Shown piece after piece: positions 9,718-20,432 of a stretch of 49,595 bases of DNA. This DNA comes from Aquiflexum balticum DSM 16537. GTDB taxonomy: Bacteria > Bacteroidota > Bacteroidia > Cytophagales > Cyclobacteriaceae. Made by a program: the position numbers and the translations under genes. Position 1 is the stretch's first letter, and each line of letters opens with the position of its first letter. The stretch lies in the NCBI RefSeq assembly GCF_900176595.1, contig NZ_LT838813.1:5937501-5987095 (forward strand). Reading direction: 5' to 3'. Under the pieces are notes generated by a model. That model searched no databases, had not been told where the DNA came from, and was given only the letters and a program-made list of their open reading frames with translations.

Positions 9718-9744
9718 TCGCAGAGAGGAAGGGATTCGAACCCT
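9718..9744. repeat. attL: 27-bp copy of the tRNA-Ser 3' end
   Basis: Begins TCGCAGAGAGG and ends TTCGAACCCT, identical over 27 bases to 20343-20369, then diverges on both sides. It contains only the T arm and the acceptor 3' strand, so it is not a functional tRNA. Confidence 0.92.
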
Positions 9745-9851
9745 TTTTACTTATATTAGGAAATATAACTTTAAATCATCTTACTAAAGCTATTTAAACA
9801 AGGTTTATAGTAAACAGAGACAAGACAAATCAACCTAAATAAAAAATAATT

Positions 9852-9874
9852 ACACCCCAATTAACACCCCAATT
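9852..9874. repeat. Tandem ACACCCCAATT repeat at the left end (candidate integrase arm sites)
   Basis: ACACCCCAATT occurs twice with a 12-bp period, about 110 bp inside attL and directly before the integrase gene. A diverged pair with the same 12-bp period lies at 20271-20293, inside attR. Tyrosine integrases with an N-terminal arm-binding domain bind such repeats at both element ends. Confidence 0.6.
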
Positions 9875-9914
9875 GTTTTTTTTATATCTTAGGTGTGTCT
9901 TAAATGGGGAAAAA

Positions 9915-11243
9915 ATGGCAAAACTTACAATCCGGTTCGAAATCCGGCAGGAAAAATTGAACCGAGAGGGCATGGCTCCTATTTCATGTATCCTTTCAGT
10001 TTCGCAAAACAGAAAGAGATTAGCTACTGAAATCAGTATCCCACCAATCAATTGGGATAAATCCAAGCAAAGAGCAACCTACATTAATAAAAAGATGCAC
10101 TCAAAGACAGCTGGATCAAGCGCATCAATTATCTTGATGGAATCCGACATTGATAGGATTAATTCACTTATAGAGAAATTCAAATCCAAGCTCAACTTTA
10201 TTGAGGATGGATTTAGACTTGCAGACAAGGATTATAGTGTGGAGGACATTTTTGATTCATTCAGAAATTCCAAAACCTCCACCGGAATTAAGGGTCCAGA
10301 AAAAGCCACTTTAATAACTCAGACTGTTCCAGACTTCATAGACACCTACATAGAGAGGAATAAAGCGAGTAGGGCCACAAGAAGTCTTGGAGTGTATTCA
10401 CAGCTTCAAAGTCATTTGAAGAGTTTTGAAAAATGGACAGGAAAAAAGGTAACCTTTGATAGGATAGGACTTTCATTTTTTGAGGAATTTCAATCATACT
10501 TGATTGAGGAACGTGATACAATAAACAACATTACCATAGCCAAACAGCTAAGCACACTTAAAACATTGTTGGGATATGCCAGAAAGCATGGAATAGAAAT
10601 GAATCAATCATACAGGGATTTTACTATCAAACGGCAAAAACTTGAAGTGATCACCTTATCAGAAAGTGAATATAGGTTATTGAAAGAAGCAAATTTGAAG
10701 GGAGTAAGCCGACATGAGAAAGCACGAGACATATTCATTTTTCTTTGCGCAACAAGTATGAGGTTTTCGGATTATGATCAATTCAAAAGAGAGCATATTA
10801 AAGGCAGTACTATCCAATTGACCATGAAGAAAGGAAGTAAGCCATGGGAAATACCGTTAAATCCTGATTCACTTTCCATACTCGAAAAATATAAAGAATT
10901 GGCTGAACCTTTGCCTAAGATTTCAAACCCAAAGCTATCCAAATACATCAAGGAGGTTTGTGAAGTTGCAAATATTGATGAATCCATTGAAATTGTGAGA
11001 TACAAGGGTGCCGAACCAATCAGACAGGTTTTTCCCAAACACAAACTTGTTTCAGCACATACCGGACGTAAGACATTTTGCACACTTTCTCTTGAACGTG
11101 GGGCATCAGTTGAAACGGTCATGAAATGGTCTGGTCATGAGTCATATGCAAGTTTCAAACGGTATGTCAATTTAAGCCGGACTCACAGCATAAGTGAAAT
11201 GGAACGGGTTTGGGGCAAAGGAAATATCTTGAAAGCCGGATAA
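9915..11243 (+). CDS. int: Tyrosine recombinase / integrase
   Basis: 442 residues from the ATG at 9915, where the conserved MAKLTIRFEIR start begins; an in-frame ATG 42 bases upstream is less likely. Order: Arm-DNA-binding domain (about 1-95), core SAM-like domain (about 120-235), catalytic domain (about 245-435). Catalytic residues are Arg283 (SMRFSDY), His382 and Arg385 (HTGRKTF), His408 (SGHES) and nucleophile Tyr417 (KRYVN). It should join and excise the element at the tRNA-Ser 3' end. It reads inward from attL, as in most tRNA-integrated islands. Confidence 0.95.
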   Translation: MAKLTIRFEIRQEKLNREGMAPISCILSVSQNRKRLATEISIPPINWDKSKQRATYINKKMHSKTAGSSASIILMESDIDRINSLIEKFKSKLNFIEDGFRLADKDYSVEDIFDSFRNSKTSTGIKGPEKATLITQTVPDFIDTYIERNKASRATRSLGVYSQLQSHLKSFEKWTGKKVTFDRIGLSFFEEFQSYLIEERDTINNITIAKQLSTLKTLLGYARKHGIEMNQSYRDFTIKRQKLEVITLSESEYRLLKEANLKGVSRHEKARDIFIFLCATSMRFSDYDQFKREHIKGSTIQLTMKKGSKPWEIPLNPDSLSILEKYKELAEPLPKISNPKLSKYIKEVCEVANIDESIEIVRYKGAEPIRQVFPKHKLVSAHTGRKTFCTLSLERGASVETVMKWSGHESYASFKRYVNLSRTHSISEMERVWGKGNILKAG

Positions 11244-11355
11244 ATATTGAAATTGAAATTGAAAAAAAGTCAAAATTCCAAAATACTTGCATAAATAAGT
11301 AGTTTACGAATGGTGAAAAGTTTTTAATTTTAAAGGAAATCTTTGGGGAAAAAGA

Positions 11356-12198
11356 ATGGAACGAACAGAAAACCCTGTTATTGAAAGGCAAATTTATTGG
11401 TTAAAGTATTTTAAAATCCCATCTTTTATTGATTTTTTAAATGGAAAACCAAAACCCTTTTTGGATATGGCAATGCTTGTTGCTGAAGATACAGATGAAA
11501 GTAATGAAGTTTGGTTTAAATATGTAGATGGGATAATTGAATTATTTATAGATAATCTTAGTTCAAAGATCAAGCCTAATTTGGAAAAATCTAATCAGTT
11601 GACTAGTAAAGGTTTTGAAATTATTTTGAATTATATTAAAAATCCTACTTTCCAGAAAGCTGTAATAAAAAGGCATCAACATGGAAAAGATATAATTACA
11701 TTATCAGGAAACCTTCAGACAATTGTATCTTCAAAATCATTAGAAAATTTTAGAAAAACTACTAATAAAATCTTGTGGTCAGAAAATTCTTTTTTGGAAT
11801 TGCGAAAAGCTTATATTGACAAGGTTAAAAAAAATCATGGGTTGCTAACTAATGATGAATCGAGTATGAGCCGAAATCAGAAAAAGACTGATTTAACACC
11901 CGTACAAGCAGGGTATATGTTATATTTTTTAATGGGAAAACACCCTAATTTTAAAAAATGCACTTCTAGGAATCATGTTGGAATTAAAGAGAATTTAAAA
12001 AAATTAGGTATCGAAAAAATGAGTCCTAATACTGTTTATCAAAAAGGAATTAGAATTCTTAATAATGCTGTGAAATACAAGGATTTTATCAATCCTAAAG
12101 ATGTAGCAGAAATAATTCCAAAACTCAAAAAATTGGATCCAGAAATTGCTACTACAGCAAAAAATGAGTTTTATTATTTGATACATGGTAGGGATTAA
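11356..12198 (+). CDS. Hypothetical element protein
   Basis: 280 residues, visibly richer in A/T codons than the replication genes that follow. The N-terminus (RQIYWLKYFKIPSFIDFLNG) is hydrophobic/aromatic but has no clear signal peptide. The middle is Lys-rich and helical. The C-terminal half contains KKTDLTPVQAGYMLYFLMGK. No catalytic motif is recognisable. It lies alone between the integrase and the regulator-replication block, in the same direction. A regulatory or DNA-binding role is possible but unsupported. Confidence 0.7.
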   Translation: MERTENPVIERQIYWLKYFKIPSFIDFLNGKPKPFLDMAMLVAEDTDESNEVWFKYVDGIIELFIDNLSSKIKPNLEKSNQLTSKGFEIILNYIKNPTFQKAVIKRHQHGKDIITLSGNLQTIVSSKSLENFRKTTNKILWSENSFLELRKAYIDKVKKNHGLLTNDESSMSRNQKKTDLTPVQAGYMLYFLMGKHPNFKKCTSRNHVGIKENLKKLGIEKMSPNTVYQKGIRILNNAVKYKDFINPKDVAEIIPKLKKLDPEIATTAKNEFYYLIHGRD

Positions 12199-12280
12199 GG
12201 GTTTGCAAGTAAATTTTTTTTTGAAATTTTTTGATCTGATTTTCAGCATTTTATAAAAACGAACTCTTTTATATAACCTT

Positions 12281-12319
12281 GCTAACCTATATACAACCGG
12301 TTAGCGACCTTTGAAAGGT
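12281..12319. promoter_or_regulatory. Two palindromes upstream of the HTH gene (candidate operators)
   Basis: GCTAACC (12281-12287) and GGTTAGC (12299-12305) form a perfect inverted repeat with an 11-base spacer. It is followed by ACCTTTGAAAGGT (12307-12319), perfect around a central G. Both lie just before the start of the HTH regulator and its operon, where an autoregulator or a helper-phage inducer would bind. Confidence 0.5.
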
Positions 12320-12348
12320 GGAGATCTTTGAATAAAAACAAAGAAATC

Positions 12349-12639
12349 ATGGACAATCCAACAGTTCTATTCACCATCCCATTGCACAGATTAAAAGTTG
12401 AAATGCAAGGATGGTTCAAGGAGATCTTGAATCAAAAAGATTCAGAGTTAATGAAATCAAAAGAAGGATTAATTCTAGACACCGATCAACTAATGGAAAA
12501 GCTGGGAGTTACCCGGCCAACACTTTCAAAGTGGAGGAAAGAAGGGAGGATCCCTTTTATTCAAGTTGGGTCTGTGGTCCGATATGACCTGGACAAAGTA
12601 TTGGAGGTATTGGAAAACAAAAAAAGGAGGTCTAAATGA
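12349..12639 (+). CDS. Excisionase / AlpA-type helix-turn-helix protein
   Basis: 96 residues from ATG 12349; an in-frame TTG at 12328, preceded by AGGTGG, would add seven residues. The C-terminal half is a MerR/excisionase-type winged HTH: ILDTDQLMEKLGVTRPTLSK, then WRKEGRIPFIQVGSVVRYDL, with a basic tail. The N-terminal 40 residues (IPLHRLKVEMQGWFKEIL) resemble the leader of Bacteroidota element HTH proteins. It likely directs excision and/or activates the replication operon, as AlpA does in Gram-negative PICIs. It overlaps the next gene by 4 bases (ATGA). Confidence 0.87.
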   Translation: MDNPTVLFTIPLHRLKVEMQGWFKEILNQKDSELMKSKEGLILDTDQLMEKLGVTRPTLSKWRKEGRIPFIQVGSVVRYDLDKVLEVLENKKRRSK

Positions 12640-12839
12640 AATCATTCAACCAGACCTCCGAAAATGTCTCTTTGAGGAAAGAACATTGCAAAGATATTGA
12701 TAAAATACATTTTATCAACTTCAAAGGAACACTTATCAGAACAATAGCAAGTATCAGTTTTACAGTGGTTTCCGGATACCTATTTAATTTTGAAATTTTC
12801 TTAATTACAAGTTTGGAGGCTGTCAGATTATGGCACTGA
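12636..12839 (+). CDS. Small protein coupled between regulator and RepA-like gene
   Basis: 67 residues. It begins inside the stop of the HTH gene (ATGA) and overlaps the next gene by 10 bases, so it is embedded in a coupled operon. The N-terminal 30 residues are charged; residues about 33-58 (IRTIASISFTVVSGYLFNFE and onward) form one hydrophobic stretch that could be a membrane segment. No family recognised. The tight coupling on both sides is the main reason to accept it. Confidence 0.5.
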   Translation: MKSFNQTSENVSLRKEHCKDIDKIHFINFKGTLIRTIASISFTVVSGYLFNFEIFLITSLEAVRLWH

Positions 12840-14011
12840 GACAAACACCCAAACTCCCATTAGGTGGCGATTTAGAGAAAATGAGTAAAAATTTCCAAAA
12901 AAATCATCAAGATATTGCGATGCAGATGGTAATTGATGATGTGGAAATCCAATCCGAAAATGATAAGAAAGGTATAGGTTTAGAGGATATCTATACTGAA
13001 GCTGAAAAACTTTTGAATCGAGGTAACGAAGCTAAAGAAAGTAAAGGGTTGTTCACCGTGAAAACAGCCACCCGTTGGATTGAGCAAGCGAAAACCCGAC
13101 CTATTCCGAAAATGCTCTTTGGAGAATTTTGGTTTGAGGGCGAACTATGCATTTTGTTTGCCGACACGAATCTAGGGAAGTCTATTTTAGCCGTGCAAAT
13201 TGGTAACAGCATAAGCAGGGGAGAACAGATACAGGGCTTTAAACTGGAAACACCAAAGCAACCAATTTTGTATTTTGATTTTGAGTTAAGCGACAAACAA
13301 TTTGAAAATCGGTATTCAATAAAGTTTGAACAGCATTACAATTTTGATAACAACCTAATACGGGTTGAGATTAACCCCGATGCTGTAATACCCGAAACCC
13401 AAACCTTTGAGGATTTCCTCAACCATTCATTAGAACGAAGCATTACCGAAACTGGGGCAAAGGTTTTAATCATTGATAACATCACATATCTCAAAAATGA
13501 AACAGAAAGGGCTAAAGATGCATTGCCCTTAATGAAGCATTTGAAAGCATTAAAAAGTAAATATGGGCTTTCTGTTTTAGTTTTAGCACACACACCTAAA
13601 AGGGATAATTCCCGACCTATAAGCGTAAACGATATACAAGGCAGTAAAATGATTTCCATTTTTATGGATAGCTGTTTTGCCATTGGTGAAAGCCATAAAG
13701 ATAAAAGTTTACGCTACTTGAAACAGATTAAAGCAAGACAAAACGAAAAGGTGTTTGATACTGAAAATGTTTGCATTTGTCAAATAGCCAAGCCAACCAA
13801 TTTTTTAAAGTTTGAGTTTCTTGATTACGGAACAGAACGAGAACACTTACGGGAAATAACAGAACAGGACAAAGGAAAAAAGATTATCGAAGCAATGGAA
13901 TTAAAAAAACAAGGTGCTTCAAATATTGAAATAGCTCGAAGGTTTGGCGTTTCAGAAGGCGCAATACGCAAATGGATTAAGAAAGCAAATGAAAATGAAG
14001 CAGGTAATTAA
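12830..14011 (+). CDS. RepA-like AAA/RecA-fold ATPase (replication helicase)
   Basis: 393 residues. The ATPase core shows a Walker A-like loop ADTNLGKS (Lys117), Walker B VLIIDNI (Asp216) and a sensor-like LVLAHTPKRD, matching RecA-fold RepA / AAA_25 hexameric helicases of plasmids and mobile elements. The C-terminus (about 350-385, NIEIARRFGVSEGAIRKWIK) is a helix-turn-helix that may bind the origin. The usual first Gly of the P-loop is Ala here. It precedes the primase gene and the 14028-14070 inverted repeat, giving a self-contained replication module. Confidence 0.87.
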   Translation: MALRQTPKLPLGGDLEKMSKNFQKNHQDIAMQMVIDDVEIQSENDKKGIGLEDIYTEAEKLLNRGNEAKESKGLFTVKTATRWIEQAKTRPIPKMLFGEFWFEGELCILFADTNLGKSILAVQIGNSISRGEQIQGFKLETPKQPILYFDFELSDKQFENRYSIKFEQHYNFDNNLIRVEINPDAVIPETQTFEDFLNHSLERSITETGAKVLIIDNITYLKNETERAKDALPLMKHLKALKSKYGLSVLVLAHTPKRDNSRPISVNDIQGSKMISIFMDSCFAIGESHKDKSLRYLKQIKARQNEKVFDTENVCICQIAKPTNFLKFEFLDYGTEREHLREITEQDKGKKIIEAMELKKQGASNIEIARRFGVSEGAIRKWIKKANENEAGN

Positions 14012-14027
14012 GTTCAATTCGTACACC

Positions 14028-14070
14028 TCGTACCGTTCGTACTCCTGTACGATAAGTACGAACGGTACGA
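14028..14070. repeat. Perfect 16-bp inverted repeat (candidate origin or operator)
   Basis: TCGTACCGTTCGTACT (14028-14043) and AGTACGAACGGTACGA (14055-14070) are exact reverse complements around an 11-base loop. The word GTAC recurs six times in 14021-14068. It lies in the only gap (75 bp) between the RepA-like ATPase and the primase. There is no T-run, so it is not an ordinary terminator. Confidence 0.75.
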
Positions 14071-14086
14071 AGCACTAAACAAAACA

Positions 14087-15139
14087 ATGAGCGATCATAA
14101 ATACATTTTAGAACCATACAAGGGAATGAATACTCGTCACCGATGCCCCAGTTGCCTGCAAAGGGATAAAACGTTTTCGGTTTACATTGATACAGAAACA
14201 GGCGAACCCATACACCCTACCGTTGGCAGATGCAACCGTGAAAGCAAATGCGGTTACCATTACACCCCGAAACAATATTTTGAGGATAAAGGTGTTTCAA
14301 TTGAGACAAGTCAGCCCAAAAAATACAAGCCGAAAGCCGATACACCTCCTCCGAAGCCCGTTTCATTTATTCCCATCGAGATATTTAAAGCCAGTCTTAA
14401 AGCACATGAAACAAACCACTTTGTACAGTTCCTTTTTAGCCTATTCGGGTTTGAGGTTGCCAGCCAACTGGTAATCCGATACTTTATTGCCACCTCAAAA
14501 CATTGGAAAGGTGCAACTGTATTTTGGCAGATAGATATAAAGGGCCAAGTGAGAACTGGGAAAATTATGCTCTACAATCCCAATACAGGAAGAAGAGTAA
14601 AAGAACCATTCAGTCATATCAGCTGGGCGCATAAAGCCCTTAAACAGCCGGAATTTGAATTAAAACAATGTTTGTTTGGAGAACATTTACTGATAGATAA
14701 AACAAAACCTGTCGCTATAGTTGAGAGTGAAAAAACCGCAATAATTGCCAGTGTGTATTTGCCCCAGTTTATTTGGGTTGCAGTTGGCAGCATTACTAAC
14801 CTGAATGCTGAAAAGTGCAGCGTATTAAAGGGGCGAATTGTCGCACTATTTCCCGACCTCAACGGGTTTAATAAATGGAGTAGTAAGGCCAAGGAACTTT
14901 CAACTGTTGCCAATTTTATAGTTTCTGATTTATTGGAACGGAATGCCACTGAAGAAGAAAGGAACCAAGGGCTTGATCTTGCTGACTATTTAACAAGGTT
15001 TAAATACCACGATTTTACACTAGCTAAACCTGAAGCCCTAGAATTTCCTTCATTGGTTCAACCAAATGTTCAGGCGGAAAATATAATAAAATCTGAACCT
15101 GCTAGTTATTGCCCTAAAACGGAACTAAGAAAAGCCTAA
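14087..15139 (+). CDS. Zinc-finger / Toprim-like primase (DUF6371-like)
   Basis: 350 residues. The N-terminus has a zinc ribbon (RCPSC, Cys20 and Cys23; RCNRESKC, Cys49 and Cys55), like CHC2 fingers of DnaG-type primases. A central domain follows (FVQFLFSLFGFEVASQLVIR). The C-terminal half shows Toprim-like acidic motifs IVESEKTA (Glu213) and LFPDLNGF (Asp257). It would prime replication of the element together with the ATPase just upstream. The DUF6371 assignment is from memory of the domain layout; the zinc finger and Toprim-like motifs are visible directly. Confidence 0.8.
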   Translation: MSDHKYILEPYKGMNTRHRCPSCLQRDKTFSVYIDTETGEPIHPTVGRCNRESKCGYHYTPKQYFEDKGVSIETSQPKKYKPKADTPPPKPVSFIPIEIFKASLKAHETNHFVQFLFSLFGFEVASQLVIRYFIATSKHWKGATVFWQIDIKGQVRTGKIMLYNPNTGRRVKEPFSHISWAHKALKQPEFELKQCLFGEHLLIDKTKPVAIVESEKTAIIASVYLPQFIWVAVGSITNLNAEKCSVLKGRIVALFPDLNGFNKWSSKAKELSTVANFIVSDLLERNATEEERNQGLDLADYLTRFKYHDFTLAKPEALEFPSLVQPNVQAENIIKSEPASYCPKTELRKA

Positions 15140-15150
15140 AAGATGGGAAC

Positions 15151-15360
15151 ATGAAATTTCAGAACTTGAAAAATATTTTTCTACCACTATTATACCCACC
15201 TATCCCATTAAGATTAATCAATGCACTACTATTCAAAAACCCTCACCTTTTTGTTGAAAGCCATTTATCAACCATAAAAGCGAATAGTGACAAAATCAAT
15301 TATAATGTTTATTTGGATAGATTAATCAATTTCAAAAAATGTATTGAAAATTTTACTTAG
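15151..15360 (+). CDS. Small hypothetical protein
   Basis: 69 residues starting 11 bp after the primase stop, same strand. Hydrophobic N-terminal half (IFLPLLYPPIPLRLINALLF), basic and polar C-terminal half. No family recognised; it may be a real small protein or a chance frame. The short spacing to the primase is the only contextual support. Confidence 0.35.
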   Translation: MKFQNLKNIFLPLLYPPIPLRLINALLFKNPHLFVESHLSTIKANSDKINYNVYLDRLINFKKCIENFT

Positions 15361-15432
15361 TGAATTTGTAAGTTTTCTTTAACTTGTTTGTAGGAAGTAA
15401 GAATATTGTCAGTTAATCCATTCAGTAAAAAT

Positions 15433-15597
15433 ATGAAGAACGAGGAATTAAAAAAGGAGGTGCCAAAACCTCAATTAAACCATGATCAATTGGAGGAGAA
15501 ATTGGATAGACTTTGGAATGAAATAGAAAAACTAAAAGTCAATCTTCCTACGATTTCCATAAACATTTCTGATGAGTGTCAAGGTTGCGGAAGCTAA
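15433..15597 (+). CDS. Small acidic coiled-coil-like protein
   Basis: 54 residues from ATG 15433; a TTG nine codons upstream is also in frame. Charged and helical (QLNHDQLEEKLDRLWNEIEK), with two Cys near the end (DECQGCGS). No family recognised. It precedes the next small gene on the same strand, so the two may be partners. Confidence 0.45.
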   Translation: MKNEELKKEVPKPQLNHDQLEEKLDRLWNEIEKLKVNLPTISINISDECQGCGS

Positions 15598-15619
15598 TGC
15601 TACATTTAACAAATCCAAG

Positions 15620-15919
15620 ATGGAAGAGAAAACAGAAATTCAGAAAGCCCGGCAGGTAAAGAGAACCCAATTGTTGATGGAACTATTGGCAAAGCAGAAC
15701 GGGCAGGCCACAGACCCGACAGAATCAATCCTAATGCAGAAATTGAAGGAGGACTTCCTAAGTAAGAACAGGCAGAGGATATTCCTGGAATTGATGGTTC
15801 AGTACCTAAACCTGACAACTGAGAAGGAACAGGTTAGCCAAGTCTTGACAAAGTTTCTCAACCTTACACCACAGGAGCAAGGTACGTTGCAAGAGATCCT
15901 AAAAGAAATTAATAAATAA
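15620..15919 (+). CDS. Small helical hypothetical protein
   Basis: 99 residues from ATG 15620; an earlier in-frame ATG at 15572 would overlap the upstream gene by 26 bases and add 16 residues. Highly charged and helical (KARQVKRTQLLMELLAKQNG, FLELMVQYLNLTTEKEQVSQ), no Cys, no membrane segment. GC content is higher than in the cargo genes. Function unknown. Its position after the replication module is where satellites often keep packaging-interference or regulatory genes, but nothing in the sequence shows such a role. Confidence 0.6.
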   Translation: MEEKTEIQKARQVKRTQLLMELLAKQNGQATDPTESILMQKLKEDFLSKNRQRIFLELMVQYLNLTTEKEQVSQVLTKFLNLTPQEQGTLQEILKEINK

Positions 15920-15951
15920 CGCCTACAAGAGCGCTAAAGACTTTTTGTTAA

Positions 15952-16047
15952 TTGCATGCATTAGGAAACGCTATAGATGCCAAAAGAAAGTCAGGATATG
16001 CTGTAGGAGCTGCAAGGCAGACGGGCTATAAGGTTGGACTCAAATAA
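15952..16047 (+). pseudogene. Short coding-like remnant
   Basis: A frame of 31 codons without an ATG, ending in a TAA, reads as plausible protein (AIDAKRKSGYAVGAARQTGY, then KVGLK). It may be the 3' remnant of a deleted gene. Weak evidence; no homologue recognised. Confidence 0.25.
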
Positions 16048-16085
16048 AAAAACCTTGTATTATAAAGAAAATAAAATGTAAAAAA

Positions 16086-18125
16086 TTACTTCATTTCTAA
16101 TAAAAGTTTTCCTTCTTTATAAGTCTCTTTTTTGATTGTTTGGTTAGATTTTACATCAATAAAAATTGTTTTCCCATTTCTTAAACCAGCTTTTATTTTT
16201 CTTATCTCATTAATTCCATCTTCCTTATTGATAAAAGTAAAGTCACCGGAAAACAATTCTCCGTTAAGTTTTAAATATTTTTCCTCAATCTTTAGGTCTT
16301 TCTCAAAATAAGATTCAATTTTAACATTTTGATCATAATAGAAAAATGTCCATAAACCAATTCTATCTTTTTTATAATAATTACCAATTATAACAGGTTG
16401 ATTGAAATTATTAATCAGTTTAAATTCTCCATCTTTAAATCCATTTCTCTCATTATTATCTTTATTTCTCATCGTTAATAAATAATTGAAATAAAACCAA
16501 AAGTGGTCAAATTCTTTATCTTTTTTTAATGAATAAACTTGTGAAATACTCCCATCTTTTGTAAAATCAGTTTTTCGGCATCGAAAACTATCCAGTTTTT
16601 CTTCATAAATTTCATACTTAGTATATAATGTAATACCTAAACTATCATATATACTTAGTTCTTTTAATTTACCATTAGAATATATCCCCTTATGTTGATT
16701 ATTGCTAAAGTGATTTAGAGTAAGATATTCTCCATCGAGCTCTCCATTTTTGTAATTAAAAATTTCCTCTAAATTACTTTCAGTTTTGAATTGAATCCAT
16801 TTACCCTCTCTTTTACCTCTTAAATAATGTCCTTTTTGAAAATAGTAAATTGGTTCGTTTTCAAGATTATAACTATACCTTTCTATCCATTCTCCACTTC
16901 TTTCTCCATTAACATATTTACCTTCATTTACTAATGTACCTGCCAAATCATAATATTTCCAATTACCAGACTTTAGACCATGATTAAAATACCCCTCCTT
17001 TACAAGTGTGAGTTTAGAAATATCTGTTTCAAAGACTCCACCATATAATGATCCTTTAGTGTCTAAATAAACTTTATACTCCCCATGAAATTTATTGTCC
17101 TTATAGGACCCAATTTTTAAACTATCACGATCAGGTTTTTGGAATGCACCATTTAAAACTCCATCAGTGAAATTCTCGAATTTTAACAAATTCTCCATGT
17201 CATCTCCAAGTACCAAAAGTCTCCAAGATCCATTTTTCTTATCGTTTTTATAATCACCTATTAACCTTCCCCGAAGGTTTCCATTATCTTTATTGTAATA
17301 GTATTCTATGTATTGACCGTTTTTTAAATCATTTTCATAATTAAAAGAGTGAGAAATTTTTCCTTGCTCATAAACAATAAACTTACCTTCAATTTTCCCA
17401 TTAGACATAGAATATTCTGCAACAAGATTTCCTTCTTCATCAAATTCTTTGAAAGGTCCATTTTCAATTCCATTTATTAAAGTACTTACTTTATCAATTT
17501 TTCCATTTGGTTTATAAAACTTGATCTCCCCATTTATCTCCCCATTAAGTAGGGAATATTCGGCTTTAATTTGTCCATTAGGATAATAATCTGTTTTTTT
17601 TCCATTTTCATTATCATATATTCCTGCTTTATTTGTTAATGTAATGTTGTAAGCAGTTAAACTTACATCACTCCAACCATCATCCTTTTGCCTACTTGTA
17701 GAAATTTTTAAAGTATATATAGAATTTTGATATGTCGAAATAACTTCATTATTCTCAATATCACTTTTTACAAGTTCAAACCCAGCTGAGGAAATCGAGT
17801 TTTGAATTGATAAGTAGGTATCATCGTTGAAAAAAGAATAAGATATTTTATTCGGTAAACCTTCATAAGTAAACAAATAAAACCATCCTTGGGATTTATC
17901 GCTATAACGATCTTTATTAAAGGTCCAGGTTATTGTATTGTATTTAATGGAACTTCCTTTCTCTGAGTCATAATAAGTCCAGCCTTTGGATATTAGACTT
18001 TGATTAACATCTTCCCAATTTTTTTTTGAGGATAGAATTGTTAAGTCCAATAATTTCAAGTTTTGTCCAAAACAAATTAAATCTAAGAAGAATGAGAATA
18101 TAGATATAAATACAAATTGTTTCAT
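16086..18125 (-). CDS. Exported MORN / YwqK-like repeat protein (cargo)
   Basis: 679 residues with an N-terminal signal peptide (MKQFVFISIFSFFLDLICFG). Residues about 180-660 are a long run of degenerate YwqK/MORN-type repeats of the pattern G-x-W/Y-x3-Y/F-x(n)-G-x-L/I with G-E/K-x-x-G turns (NGEINGEIKFYKPNGK, GPFKEFDEEGNLVAEYSM, GNWKYYDLAGTLVNEGKY). Annotation pipelines often label such proteins 'YwqK antitoxin', but no toxin partner is visible. Much more A/T-rich than the replication genes and on the opposite strand, so it looks like a separately acquired cargo gene. Confidence 0.82.
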   Translation of the reverse strand: MKQFVFISIFSFFLDLICFGQNLKLLDLTILSSKKNWEDVNQSLISKGWTYYDSEKGSSIKYNTITWTFNKDRYSDKSQGWFYLFTYEGLPNKISYSFFNDDTYLSIQNSISSAGFELVKSDIENNEVISTYQNSIYTLKISTSRQKDDGWSDVSLTAYNITLTNKAGIYDNENGKKTDYYPNGQIKAEYSLLNGEINGEIKFYKPNGKIDKVSTLINGIENGPFKEFDEEGNLVAEYSMSNGKIEGKFIVYEQGKISHSFNYENDLKNGQYIEYYYNKDNGNLRGRLIGDYKNDKKNGSWRLLVLGDDMENLLKFENFTDGVLNGAFQKPDRDSLKIGSYKDNKFHGEYKVYLDTKGSLYGGVFETDISKLTLVKEGYFNHGLKSGNWKYYDLAGTLVNEGKYVNGERSGEWIERYSYNLENEPIYYFQKGHYLRGKREGKWIQFKTESNLEEIFNYKNGELDGEYLTLNHFSNNQHKGIYSNGKLKELSIYDSLGITLYTKYEIYEEKLDSFRCRKTDFTKDGSISQVYSLKKDKEFDHFWFYFNYLLTMRNKDNNERNGFKDGEFKLINNFNQPVIIGNYYKKDRIGLWTFFYYDQNVKIESYFEKDLKIEEKYLKLNGELFSGDFTFINKEDGINEIRKIKAGLRNGKTIFIDVKSNQTIKKETYKEGKLLLEMK

Positions 18126-18418
18126 TTAAATCAATTCCTTTTAATACCGGTTAATTTTAGAAAAAAATAGATTTTCATATAAGAACTCAAATTTTATTTA
18201 TTTAATTTCTAAAATTAAAATGTTCAATGATTTCAATTTTGATTCTGAATTTTTATAATGGATTTATCAAATATTAATTAATCTCTGTAATCATTGGTAT
18301 TCCTTTCCTTTCAAATGCGTTTTATTCTTTGTTGAAATCCTTAAGGAGAAGTCTCGATCAATTATTAACCTTTAAATTACATGTTTCCCTAACCCAAGAA
18401 AATAGGTTGTTTGGGATC

Positions 18419-18565
18419 TTATAAATACTTCGCTCTTTCTTGCAAATGTTTTTCTAACCCGGATACAATTAAATCCAAATCCCTTTCTGTAAATTTATTA
18501 AAAAGTGCAATATGTTGCCGATATGATATTTAATTTTTCAAATCCTTTCGCATTTGCTCTACCAT
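18419..18565 (-). pseudogene. Broken small gene with an in-frame stop
   Basis: From an ATG at 18565 the frame reads MVEQMRKDLKN, TAA (18530-18532), then ISYRQHIALFNKFTERDLDL and IVSGLEKHLQERAKYL before a final TAA. The 36 codons after the internal stop have strong protein character and stay in the same frame. This suggests a 48-codon gene inactivated by one nonsense change. Family unknown. Confidence 0.4.
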
Positions 18566-18834
18566 AATTTAGGAGTTTATTGGAACTCTGAAAGAACCCT
18601 CATCACCTTTTCGTAATTCTTGTGATGGTTCTCGGTTTGAAATTTGATATTTTCTTTTTTTTCCCTCCCTTTAATTGTTACGTAAGTTCTATTTTAAAAA
18701 AAACAAATTACTCCTTCAATTTCAGCTTTTTCCTATTTTTAATTCATTTTTTTTTATTAATAGCAATTTTTTATTTGATATACCTTCTTAAAGATCTTCA
18801 TGATTTTGTATTTTCAAGAAATATAATTTTGTTT
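18566..18834. other. T-rich leader region before terS
   Basis: About 270 bp, very T-rich on the plus strand. The terS frame stays open through it from 18622, but the translation is low-complexity Phe/Leu. I read this as non-coding. A TAATTTTG (18824-18831) is too close to the ATG to be an ordinary promoter. Confidence 0.5.
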
Positions 18835-19311
18835 ATGAAAAAATATATTTCCATAAAGGGTGAAGAATTCGAGTTTACAGATAAGGAATTTCAATTTGCT
18901 AATTTTTATCTCGGAGAAGCACGCTTTAATGCTACAGAGGCCGCAAAACTTGCAGGATATAGTGAGAAAACAGCAAGACAACAGGGTTCAAAAATGTTGA
19001 CAAAAGTTAACATTGAAAAATACATTCAGTGGAAGGCATCTAAAATACTAGAAGACCTTGAAGTCAATCAAGAACGAATACTGAAAGAGATAGTGGCAAT
19101 TGCCTTTTCTGACGTAACTGAGTTATTTAATGATGATTGGACTTTAAAGCCTCTTAATGAAGTTTCACTAGAAAAAGTTAAAGCACTTGACATCCTGATA
19201 AAAGAGGAGAGCAAATTTGAAGTAAAAACGAAATCAATTTCAATCAATATGGATAGCAAGATGAAAGCTCTAGCAATTCTTTGGGATTTTGTGAAAAATC
19301 AACCAAAATAG
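18835..19311 (+). CDS. terS: Phage terminase small subunit (TerS-like)
   Basis: 158 residues from ATG 18835, where conserved sequence begins. The first half is the DNA-binding HTH of the Terminase_2 family (FTDKEFQFANFYLGEARFNA, then TEAAKLAGYSEKTARQQGSK). It is followed by the usual oligomerisation part with VNQERILKEIVAIAFSDVTE and a C-terminal region ending MKALAILWDFVKNQ, close to the family ending. TerS recognises the packaging site and recruits the large terminase. No terL, portal or capsid gene accompanies it, as in PICIs, where a satellite TerS redirects a helper's TerL to satellite DNA. Confidence 0.85.
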   Translation: MKKYISIKGEEFEFTDKEFQFANFYLGEARFNATEAAKLAGYSEKTARQQGSKMLTKVNIEKYIQWKASKILEDLEVNQERILKEIVAIAFSDVTELFNDDWTLKPLNEVSLEKVKALDILIKEESKFEVKTKSISINMDSKMKALAILWDFVKNQPK

Positions 19312-19496
19312 TTATCCATCAAATACTTTTATTCAATGATCCTCCTAATTTGGGAAATGTAGTAGTTAACTTTTTCATTAGAAAAATCTTACTCTTTCAT
19401 AGGATTAGAGTATCAACAATATTGATTTGAAGGAAAATAAACTAGGTCACCACTAAAGAAAATCTAGTTTAATTTCTATTTCCAAAGAGCTTTATT

Positions 19497-20138
19497 TTAA
19501 TCTGAGTAAGACAACCTTCTTGAAGCCTTCCTCATAACAGTATTAATCAAATCTTCTGTTGAAGTTCCAATAGAACCGTTTAAACCCTTATTGTAATTAG
19601 CAAGTAACAGGCCATCTTCGGCATTGTAAACAGACATATTAATTACTGCCTTATTAGTGCTTCCATAAAAACCTACTAACAGTCCTAAAGTAGCAGATGC
19701 ACCTTCTGACATAGGTTTATTTGTTTCAAATGTACCCATTATAATTCCATCTACTTCCAGAAACTTAGCAATTTCTTCAGGTGTATATTCATCTATATTT
19801 TCAAATGTGACTCCAAGTCTTTTGAGTTTTGCATTGGTGACAGCTGGATCTTGGAAATTAGTTTTCAAAGTTCCTCTTTTTTCCCTTTTTAAAAACCACG
19901 AATGCATAGCACTTTGAATACTCAAACCTTCTGAGACCTCCATTCTGTCTAATTGTTCAGCTGACATATCCTTCATATCTTTTGGCCTTAAAGTAATTGA
20001 AGTTTTGAAAGGTAAAATTGCAACCAATTCGTGATTCTTGGTTATCTCATCGAATTTGGGATGTTCATAAAGATGTGTCTGTGCTTGGGAATAATTAGAC
20101 ACAAATAGGATAAAAATTAAAAATAAGAAGGTTTTCAT
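19497..20138 (-). CDS. Exported CsgG/FlgO-like protein (cargo)
   Basis: 213 residues with a signal peptide (MKTFLFLIFILFVSNYSQAQ), cleaved probably after AQ. VAILPFKTSITL, VDGIIMGTFETNKP and VINMSVYNAEDGLLLANYNK follow the layout of CsgG / FlgO / DUF799 periplasmic domains (AVLPF strand, GxF strand, 'D/E-G-xLL' strand). There is no lipobox Cys, so it is soluble rather than a lipoprotein. It lies just inside attR, on the minus strand, with no partner gene. Family placement is tentative; the export signal is clear. Confidence 0.7.
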   Translation of the reverse strand: MKTFLFLIFILFVSNYSQAQTHLYEHPKFDEITKNHELVAILPFKTSITLRPKDMKDMSAEQLDRMEVSEGLSIQSAMHSWFLKREKRGTLKTNFQDPAVTNAKLKRLGVTFENIDEYTPEEIAKFLEVDGIIMGTFETNKPMSEGASATLGLLVGFYGSTNKAVINMSVYNAEDGLLLANYNKGLNGSIGTSTEDLINTVMRKASRRLSYSD

Positions 20139-20270
20139 AAATAATTTCTTTTAGGTAAATATTGTTTTAAACCACCAATATAAATCAAAAATTAGGAAAA
20201 CTATACCTAACAGAAAAATATTAGAGTTATTGTATTCATTCCCTCAGTTAAATTAAAAAATCATGAATTT

Positions 20271-20293
20271 ACACCCCAATCAGCACCCTAATC
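20271..20293. repeat. Right-end counterpart of the ACACCCCAATT repeat
   Basis: ACACCCCAATC and GCACCCTAATC with a 12-bp period, in the same orientation as the pair at 9852-9874 and about 50 bp inside attR. Candidate integrase arm sites. Confidence 0.55.
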
Positions 20294-20296
20294 AAA

Positions 20297-20338
20297 ATAA
20301 AAAATCCTAACTCACATATTTCCAGTAAGTTAGGTTTT
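20297..20338 (-). terminator. Terminator now serving tRNA-Ser, supplied by the element
   Basis: On the minus strand AAAACCTAAC pairs with GTTAGGATTTT around a 17-base loop and is followed by T-rich sequence, just after the tRNA 3' end. It replaces the original terminator, now 10.6 kb away at 9683-9711. Confidence 0.6.
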
Positions 20339-20342
20339 CATT

Positions 20343-20369
20343 TCGCAGAGAGGAAGGGATTCGAACCCT
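20343..20369. repeat. attR: 27-bp repeat within tRNA-Ser
   Basis: Identical to 9718-9744. It covers the T-arm and acceptor 3' strand of the intact tRNA-Ser gene plus three bases beyond the discriminator. Confidence 0.92.
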
Positions 20370-20432
20370 CGATACCCTCACGGGTATACACACTTTCCAG
20401 GCGTGCTCCTTCAACCACTCGGACACCTCTCT
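20346..20432 (-). tRNA. tRNA-Ser (anticodon GGA)
   Basis: 87 nt with a long variable arm typical of class II tRNAs (TATACCCGTGAGGGTATCGA region). The acceptor AGAGAGG pairs with CCTCTCT, discriminator G. Anticodon stem CACGC/GTGTG holds loop CTGGAAA, so GGA reads UCC/UCU. T arm GAGGG-TTCGAAT-CCCTT. The CCA end is not encoded. It is intact on the chromosomal side; the mobile element begins at its 3' end. Confidence 0.95.

Follow-up and report, generated by a model that had tools for sequence, protein, structure and literature searches.

We identified in the window, the whole stretch of 49,595 nucleotides of Aquiflexum balticum analysed here, a 10.6-kb integrated element that is most probably (roughly 0.83) a phage satellite. 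It resembles PICIs and PICMIs in its logic and would be packaged by its own small terminase subunit (TerS) together with the large subunit (TerL) of a helper phage. Most of the well-characterised phage satellites are from Firmicutes and Proteobacteria. Types from marine and soil bacteria, Cyanobacteria and Actinobacteria have been proposed in addition (PMC11389934). Literature searches, with subscription papers and most preprints outside their scope, returned no described case of this kind in Bacteroidota; the element presented in PMC12324425 is of a different type and has no terminase. Phage satellites would be extended to Bacteroidota by a TerS-bearing lineage that recurs in Cytophagales and differs in its replication family and its restriction cargo.

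The boundaries proposed from the letters alone are confirmed: an exact 27-nt direct repeat flanks the element. The chance expectation for such repeats in the window is about 7e-8, a rough figure that assumes an even base composition in DNA that is AT-rich. An intact tRNA-Ser(gga) occupies 20345-20432 on the minus strand, and its 3' end thus forms the right copy. The features are the following.

9718..9744, unstranded: attL, 27-nt copy of the tRNA-Ser 3' end
9852..9873, plus: left pair of likely arm-type sites, two exact copies of ACACCCCAAT at 12-nt spacing
9915..11243, plus: tyrosine integrase, by domain matches (Arm-DNA-bind_5, Phage_int_SAM_5, Phage_integrase)
11356..12198, plus: p280, an unassigned ORF of 280 aa between the integrase and HTH genes
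12328..12639, plus: excisionase/AlpA-type regulator (HTH_17, 1.6e-9; phrog_66, excisionase and regulator, 2.6e-9)
12830..14011, plus: RepA-like ATPase with a C-terminal HTH (AAA_25, 2.5e-20)
14087..15139, plus: primase-like protein (Zn_ribbon_16, 3.1e-28; DUF6371, 8.8e-65)
15151..15360, plus: separate ORF whose product is homologous to the C-terminal part (~70 residues) of those DUF6371 relatives that are longer
15406..15919, plus: overlapping small ORFs of 63 and 115 aa without a family above cut-off
16086..18125, minus: cargo, exported-looking protein of 679 aa with MORN-like repeats (PF07661, 0.00066; NF033566, 1.7e-9; both below cut-offs)
18835..19311, plus: terS, terminase small subunit (Terminase_2, PF03592, 2.7e-25)
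19497..20138, minus: cargo, exported-looking protein of 213 aa, no family match
20271..20292, plus: right pair of likely arm-type sites, one exact and one two-mismatch copy of ACACCCCAAT at 12-nt spacing
20343..20369, unstranded: attR, 27-nt copy
20345..20432, minus: tRNA-Ser(gga), the integration target

The paired ACACCCCAAT sites close to both ends, which the sequence-only reading did not contain, presumably bind the integrase. The tRNA-Ser site is unoccupied in 13 of the 20 loci compared (own locus counted), and in a genome of the same genus it is occupied by a different insertion headed by an integrase.

We scanned ten proteins of the window against Pfam, PHROGs and NCBIfam. The matches bear out the gene identities that had been read from the translations: a tRNA-targeting integrase (three integrase domains, with att at the tRNA-Ser 3' end), an excisionase/AlpA-type HTH protein, a RepA-like ATPase with a zinc-finger primase, and a lone terS, with no TerL among the ten proteins. 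The proposed exported cargo corresponds to two minus-strand proteins whose starts, judged by eye, are like signal peptides. The likely start of terS is the ATG at 18835 and not the GTG at 18622 of the raw ORF; upstream TTG or GTG starts are possible. Two further details are new relative to the sequence-only reading. The first is the p280 gene, whose product weakly resembles (7e-5) a 283-aa protein of a related element (L086). We considered an RteC-like regulator as a candidate for p280 and dropped the idea: RteC is not among its Pfam matches, and its AlphaFold model, with a pLDDT of 37.7, is uninformative. The second is the stop of the primase-like gene at 15139, followed by the separate ORF for the C-terminal part. 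Several relatives have a longer version of this gene, and hence the window copy of the element may be impaired. We saw no clear iteron array marking an origin after the replication genes (AAA_25, DUF6371) within the element, and counts of promoter- and terminator-like sites did not differ from those in shuffled sequence.

The gene set is close to that of PICIs, including SaPIs, which have an integrase, an excision or AlpA-type regulator, replication genes and a specific attachment site, optionally carry terS for preferential packaging, and lack structural and lytic genes (as described in PMC6092414). The element has each of these: the 27-nt att at tRNA-Ser, the HTH_17 protein, the terS that some PICIs carry, and, TerS aside, no match to virion, lysis, TerL or transfer families among the ten proteins in the three databases, as had been claimed. 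Its 10.6 kb lies on the small side of the ~15 kb of PICIs, and its relatives span 7.6-31.8 kb. PICIs differ in their divergent stl/rpr repressor pair, described for the Gram-positive ones; no divergent repressor partner was found in the element, where int, p280, HTH, repA and pri all lie on the plus strand. Replication would also rely on other families (AAA_25 and DUF6371), and the host is a member of Bacteroidota; the string 'bacteroid' has no occurrence in the main text of PMC6092414. The term 'PICI-like' holds for the expected way of working. Strict PICI membership cannot be concluded from this, since the element lacks the repressor pair and its replication proteins come from other families. 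A terminase gene is also found on cfPICIs. These encode capsid genes, whereas none was found in the element. The PICMIs of Vibrionaceae share small size and the order integrase, extra gene, AlpA, primase; PF12728 is among the AlpA models used for them, and a defence gene and a virulent helper, the likely kind of helper here, are further points in common (PMC10803314). They differ in being fis-adjacent and modelled with DUF3987/DUF5906 primases, which had no match in the window proteins; the element sits at tRNA-Ser and carries DUF6371 and terS.

With the window TerS as query against genome contigs we found seven relatives, six of them in Algoriphagus, Cyclobacterium and Rhodonellum (42-51% identical) and one in Listeria (38%). 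The six elements are bounded by direct repeats of 18-66 nt at a tRNA, encode an integrase and measure 9.7-31.8 kb; five of the six carry a p280-like gene and four a small HTH gene. The sequence-only reading had proposed a search of related species for the same gene set at tRNA-Ser with different cargo: sets of this kind with different cargo do occur at tRNA genes in other genera, but none was found at tRNA-Ser. Type I restriction is the cargo in at least three relatives; a PICMI has likewise been described with a defence gene among its cargo (PMC10803314). Among 196 genomes of the same family there are 12 unbroken TerS places (window included), with TerL adjacent in three and not adjacent in nine. 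A comparison with prophage TerS, suggested earlier, places the window TerS in a clade of 12 lone-TerS satellite rows (support 96/88) in a tree of 32 rows, and all 15 rows with a phage or prophage label fall outside this clade. One lone TerS (L102) clusters with phage TerS outside it. Values of dN/dS range from 0.10 to 0.30 among eight TerS relatives (18 of 28 pairs computable; window TerS not included), so that the satellite TerS clade shows signs of purifying selection in these relatives. Because of this clade without phage rows and these values, TerS looks like a conserved component of the element lineage and not a prophage relic. The satellite TerS clade, together with a tRNA att and paired arm sites, provides a marker for finding more such elements.

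The integrase-HTH-AAA-DUF6371 core is not specific to these elements. It is also found in Tn4555-type mobilisable elements of Bacteroides (PMC13183296), which have a mobilisation protein, and hence is by itself no pointer to phage. The window replication genes are closest to loci without a TerS match. A 10-kb plasmid-form element of Bacteroides fragilis (CP103138), whose gene set is close to that listed for Tn4555 in PMC13183296, has the same replication core, a 467-aa mobilisation protein and cfxA, and differs from the window element in lacking a TerS match. These data raise the alternative that the window element is an integrative mobilisable element, conjugated through a helper ICE or plasmid, with TerS as a passenger. 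We consider this improbable. Relaxase-based transfer had been named as counter-evidence to a satellite, and the PF03432 relaxase is absent from the window element and from every TerS element, although it is present elsewhere in 12 of 26 genomes searched; other relaxase families were covered by the Pfam and NCBIfam scans of the window proteins. Within the searched loci (L032-L116), the mobilisation protein of CP103138 matched nothing else at 1e-3, and the TerS clade and the selection on TerS also argue against a passenger.

Six phage records match DUF6371. We examined five gut contigs with DUF6371, labelled 'Bacteriophage sp.', as possible evidence of packaging; one encodes a close homologue of the mobilisation protein (1.2e-133) and another a weak one (1.5e-4), and such contigs therefore cannot separate satellites from mobilisable elements. 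We suspect that they derive from the VLP virome of PMC8361208, since source and country fit, the accessions not being seen in the parts of that source consulted. Three of seven IMG/VR contigs are circular, with terminal repeats of 114-127 nt. They carry DUF6371 at 69-72% identity, two of the three also a close RepA, and TerS had no match on them.

A decayed prophage that kept its integrase, replication genes and TerS is less probable still. TerS and a tyrosine integrase are phage-type genes, and the primase-like gene is separated from its usual C-terminus, but the att ends and arm sites are complete and no prophage mark (TerL, portal, capsid, tail) was matched in the element. The sequence-only reading had held that TerL, portal and capsid genes in close relatives would indicate such decay. 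A search with two TerL families (PF04466 and PF03237) found neither in any of the 12 lone-TerS genomes, and head, tail and lysis families were absent from the other ORFs of close relatives among the matches listed. Two more distant elements do have TerL, with no portal or capsid seen among their scanned proteins. Elements with the same small set recur without TerL, their TerS clade lacks phage rows, and independent decays would hardly be expected to converge on the same lone gene. Finally, TerS might be a weapon or regulator (e.g. poisoning phage packaging) in a defence island without its own phage-borne transfer, as could be suggested by relatives in which terS shares its element with defence genes, type I restriction among them, but this is very improbable given that integrase, excision and replication genes are retained too, and we know of no precedent for TerS alone as a weapon.

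Under the phage satellite reading, the protein families suggest the following cycle. The integrase would insert the element into the 3' end of tRNA-Ser. Upon growth of a helper phage, the integrase and the HTH_17 protein, acting as excisionase or inducer, would excise it, and the AAA_25/DUF6371 pair would replicate the excised circle. The satellite TerS would then mark element DNA, pair with the helper's large terminase and load helper capsids, as TerS directs packaging in SaPIs (PMC6092414). With no TerL found, a resident prophage is an improbable helper and a virulent phage a likely one.

More tentatively, Bacteroidota may harbour a single integrative chassis (integrase, HTH, AAA-type ATPase and DUF6371) with swappable transfer cartridges: a Tn4555-type mobilisation protein for conjugation, terS for phage packaging, terS with terL, or terS with tail genes. 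With a chassis common to Tn4555-type elements, switching between plasmid-type and phage-type helpers becomes testable. The last combination is seen in two genomes from a different family of the order, where terS is accompanied by the element's own tail genes (for a tape measure, a protein resembling a tail chaperone, or one of 730 aa with weak similarity to a phage structural protein). If the chassis reading is true, these would be capsid-less satellites that re-build the tail of their helper.

The genome carrying the window is a single contig of 5.99 Mb, of which the window covers positions 5937501-5987095. The element inserted at tRNA-Ser is bounded by an exact 27-nt repeat:

9718-9744, attL: exact 27-nt repeat, partner of the right copy
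20343-20369, attR: exact 27-nt repeat, identical to the 3' end of tRNA-Ser(gga)

The + strand encodes, in this order, an integrase, p280 (a 280-aa protein), an HTH_17 protein, an AAA_25 ATPase, a Zn-ribbon/DUF6371 protein, small ORFs and terS, while two exported-looking cargo proteins are on the - strand. The DUF6371 gene ends at 15139, and the C-terminal part of longer relatives is matched by a separate ORF (15151-15360). Since other DUF6371 relatives also lack this part, we did not call the gene broken. Three exact copies of ACACCCCAAT are found in the whole window, at 9852, 9864 and 20271, and a fourth, with two mismatches, lies at 20283. Placed near both ends of the element, these copies show the layout of putative integrase arm sites. 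The motif is not rare when one mismatch is permitted (6 found vs 3.7 expected, and 13 of 100 shuffles reach 6), and hence the argument for arm sites rests on place and spacing.

We used the window TerS as query in one scan of genome contigs, which matched seven loci: six in Algoriphagus, Cyclobacterium and Rhodonellum (42-51% identity) and a seventh in Listeria (38%). All six elements of the former genera, i.e. relatives with a lone TerS (without TerL beside it), end at a tRNA with direct repeats.

Relative elements with a lone TerS: tRNA, direct repeat, length
tRNA-Thr, 59-nt repeat, 10.6 kb
tRNA-Val, 45-nt repeat, 9.7 kb
tRNA-Leu, 66-nt repeat, 15.5 kb
tRNA-Leu, 27-nt repeat, 19.1 kb
tRNA-Leu, 24-nt repeat, 31.8 kb
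tRNA-Leu (A. hitonicola), short repeats, 18 nt at the tRNA, about 19.5 kb

Integrase and TerS are present in all six and a p280-like gene in five, where the only direct match to the window p280 comes from L086 (7e-5) and the others match the L086 protein. In four, a small protein occupies the HTH place; its only link to the window HTH runs via the corresponding protein of L058, a tail-gene locus. Two have a RepA resembling those of other DUF6371 elements (L086, one of these, also has DUF6371), three have instead a protein of ~308 aa in the RepA place that matched no Pfam family, and L084 has neither. Their cargo includes HsdR and HsdM as well as GIY-YIG-like and FRG domains, and PADLOC reports type I restriction among it. 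Pairs of GTTTGCCAA spaced by 11 nt lie near both ends in three of the six relatives; another has a pair at the left end and only one copy at the right. A fifth has a different word with one copy per end, and in L088 that different word is confined to the right end. In Rhodonellum and Cyclobacterium (L091:1500-1870 and L090:4010-4160), additional repeats immediately beyond attL duplicate the right end of the element, which would fit several elements having accumulated at the same tRNA-Leu.

Of 196 genomes of the same family, 11 have Terminase_2, including G070 and G216, each with a lone TerS; in the class it was detected in 8 of 395 genomes. The same-family search gave 15 TerS places, three of which are fragments or have internal stops. 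TerL adjoins TerS in three of the 12 unbroken places (G076 with Terminase_3, G188 and G239 with Terminase_6N) and is not beside it in the other nine, window included. Among 75 non-core ORFs of seven elements scanned with PHROGs, no head, tail or lysis function appeared in the 25 of 39 families listed; the 55 ORFs of a second scan had matches to 19 families, all of them listed, and the only ones with a name were helicase, endonuclease and Holliday-junction resolvase. These 19 may include some of the 14 other families of the first scan. Searches for TerL had hits in 4 of 21 genomes with PF04466 and in 1 of 16 with PF03237, and in none of the 12 lone-TerS genomes to which both were applied. Hence, we favour a helper phage that is virulent or absent.

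Tail genes were found at loci led by DUF6371 or an integrase in two genomes (9.5 and 9.8 Mb) from another family of the order. These are listed with L112, which also has TerL.

Loci with tail genes or TerL
L058:3352-8332, TerS and tape measure protein (PF20155, 1.5e-23)
L114:9813-14092, TerS and tape measure protein (similar at 3e-10)
L059:4448-6871, tape measure protein (3.3e-15), TerS not detected
L060:2986-7077, TerS and a 730-aa protein with weak similarity to a structural protein of a Cellulophaga phage
L113:9912-14490, TerS, TerL and the same kind of 730-aa protein as L060
L112:5079-15440, 10.3-kb element with a 73-nt att at tRNA-Asp, TerS and TerL

Neither capsid nor portal was found among the proteins scanned from L058, L114 and L059, nor among those scanned from L112. 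The limits of the tail-gene loci are putative because no exact repeat of at least 15 nt suited to be an att was found there; the one repeat of 15-16 nt in each of L113 and L114 starts inside the element rather than at its end. These loci appear satellite-like, and prophage remains are a possible reading.

In the TerS tree (32 rows, several branches long and unsure), 12 rows labelled satellite, window included, form one clade with support 96/88. The label requires 3 changes vs 10.9 in shuffles, where labels are judgements: L113 was set as satellite in spite of its TerL, the att-bounded L112 was labelled phage or prophage, and eight IMG/VR rows were counted as phage (five with an ORF of 381-837 aa directly downstream). 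Outside the clade, the satellite row L102 falls among phage TerS, and a second group consists of four G110/G125 rows. The dN/dS among eight satellite TerS, window excluded, is 0.10-0.30 across the 18 of 28 pairs that are unsaturated; many of these have high dS, and their values are rough.

Protein families, together with work on PICI and PICMI satellites (PMC6092414, PMC10803314), suggest how such an element might work. It would integrate at tRNA-Ser, the HTH protein would aid excision, the AAA_25/DUF6371 pair would replicate the element, and TerS would direct packaging of its DNA into helper capsids. In the studied PICMI, as described in PMC10803314, iolg adjoins int and is essential for excision; most subfamilies have this gene between int and alpA. 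The position of p280, between int and HTH, is the same.

The chassis of integrase, HTH protein, AAA ATPase and DUF6371 is shared with mobilisable elements. DUF6371 has matches on 11 plasmid records, nine of them from Bacteroides, and one record, CP103138, encodes an integrase, an AAA ATPase and DUF6371 together with a mobilisation protein and cfxA, largely the gene set for which PMC13183296 uses the name Tn4555. Searched with the window DUF6371 protein, 25 of 146 genomes gave a match, counting its own. The loci nearest to the window AAA_25 and DUF6371 proteins (L046-L048 and L063) had no TerS match, which suggests that the window element combines a common chassis and a satellite TerS. Three contigs from a viral database (L047, L048 and L049; 4.7-7.8 kb) are circular, as their terminal repeats of 114-127 nt indicate; they encode close DUF6371 relatives and gave no TerS or mob match. 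L048 also encodes two conserved proteins of ~200 aa.

The asparaginase gene to the right of the element is present in 26 of 29 genomes (own included). In the fetched flanks, tRNA-Ser and exbB occur together, less than 0.7 kb apart, in 13 of 20 loci (own included), where the integration site is thus uninterrupted; the remaining seven comprise the window, G001, one locus truncated by a contig end, one with a different arrangement and three whose flank has no tRNA-Ser. In G001, from the same genus, a different insertion comes after tRNA-Ser (L137:541-2215), led by an integrase that matches the window integrase at 1.6e-22 and containing other genes, and the site is thus reused.
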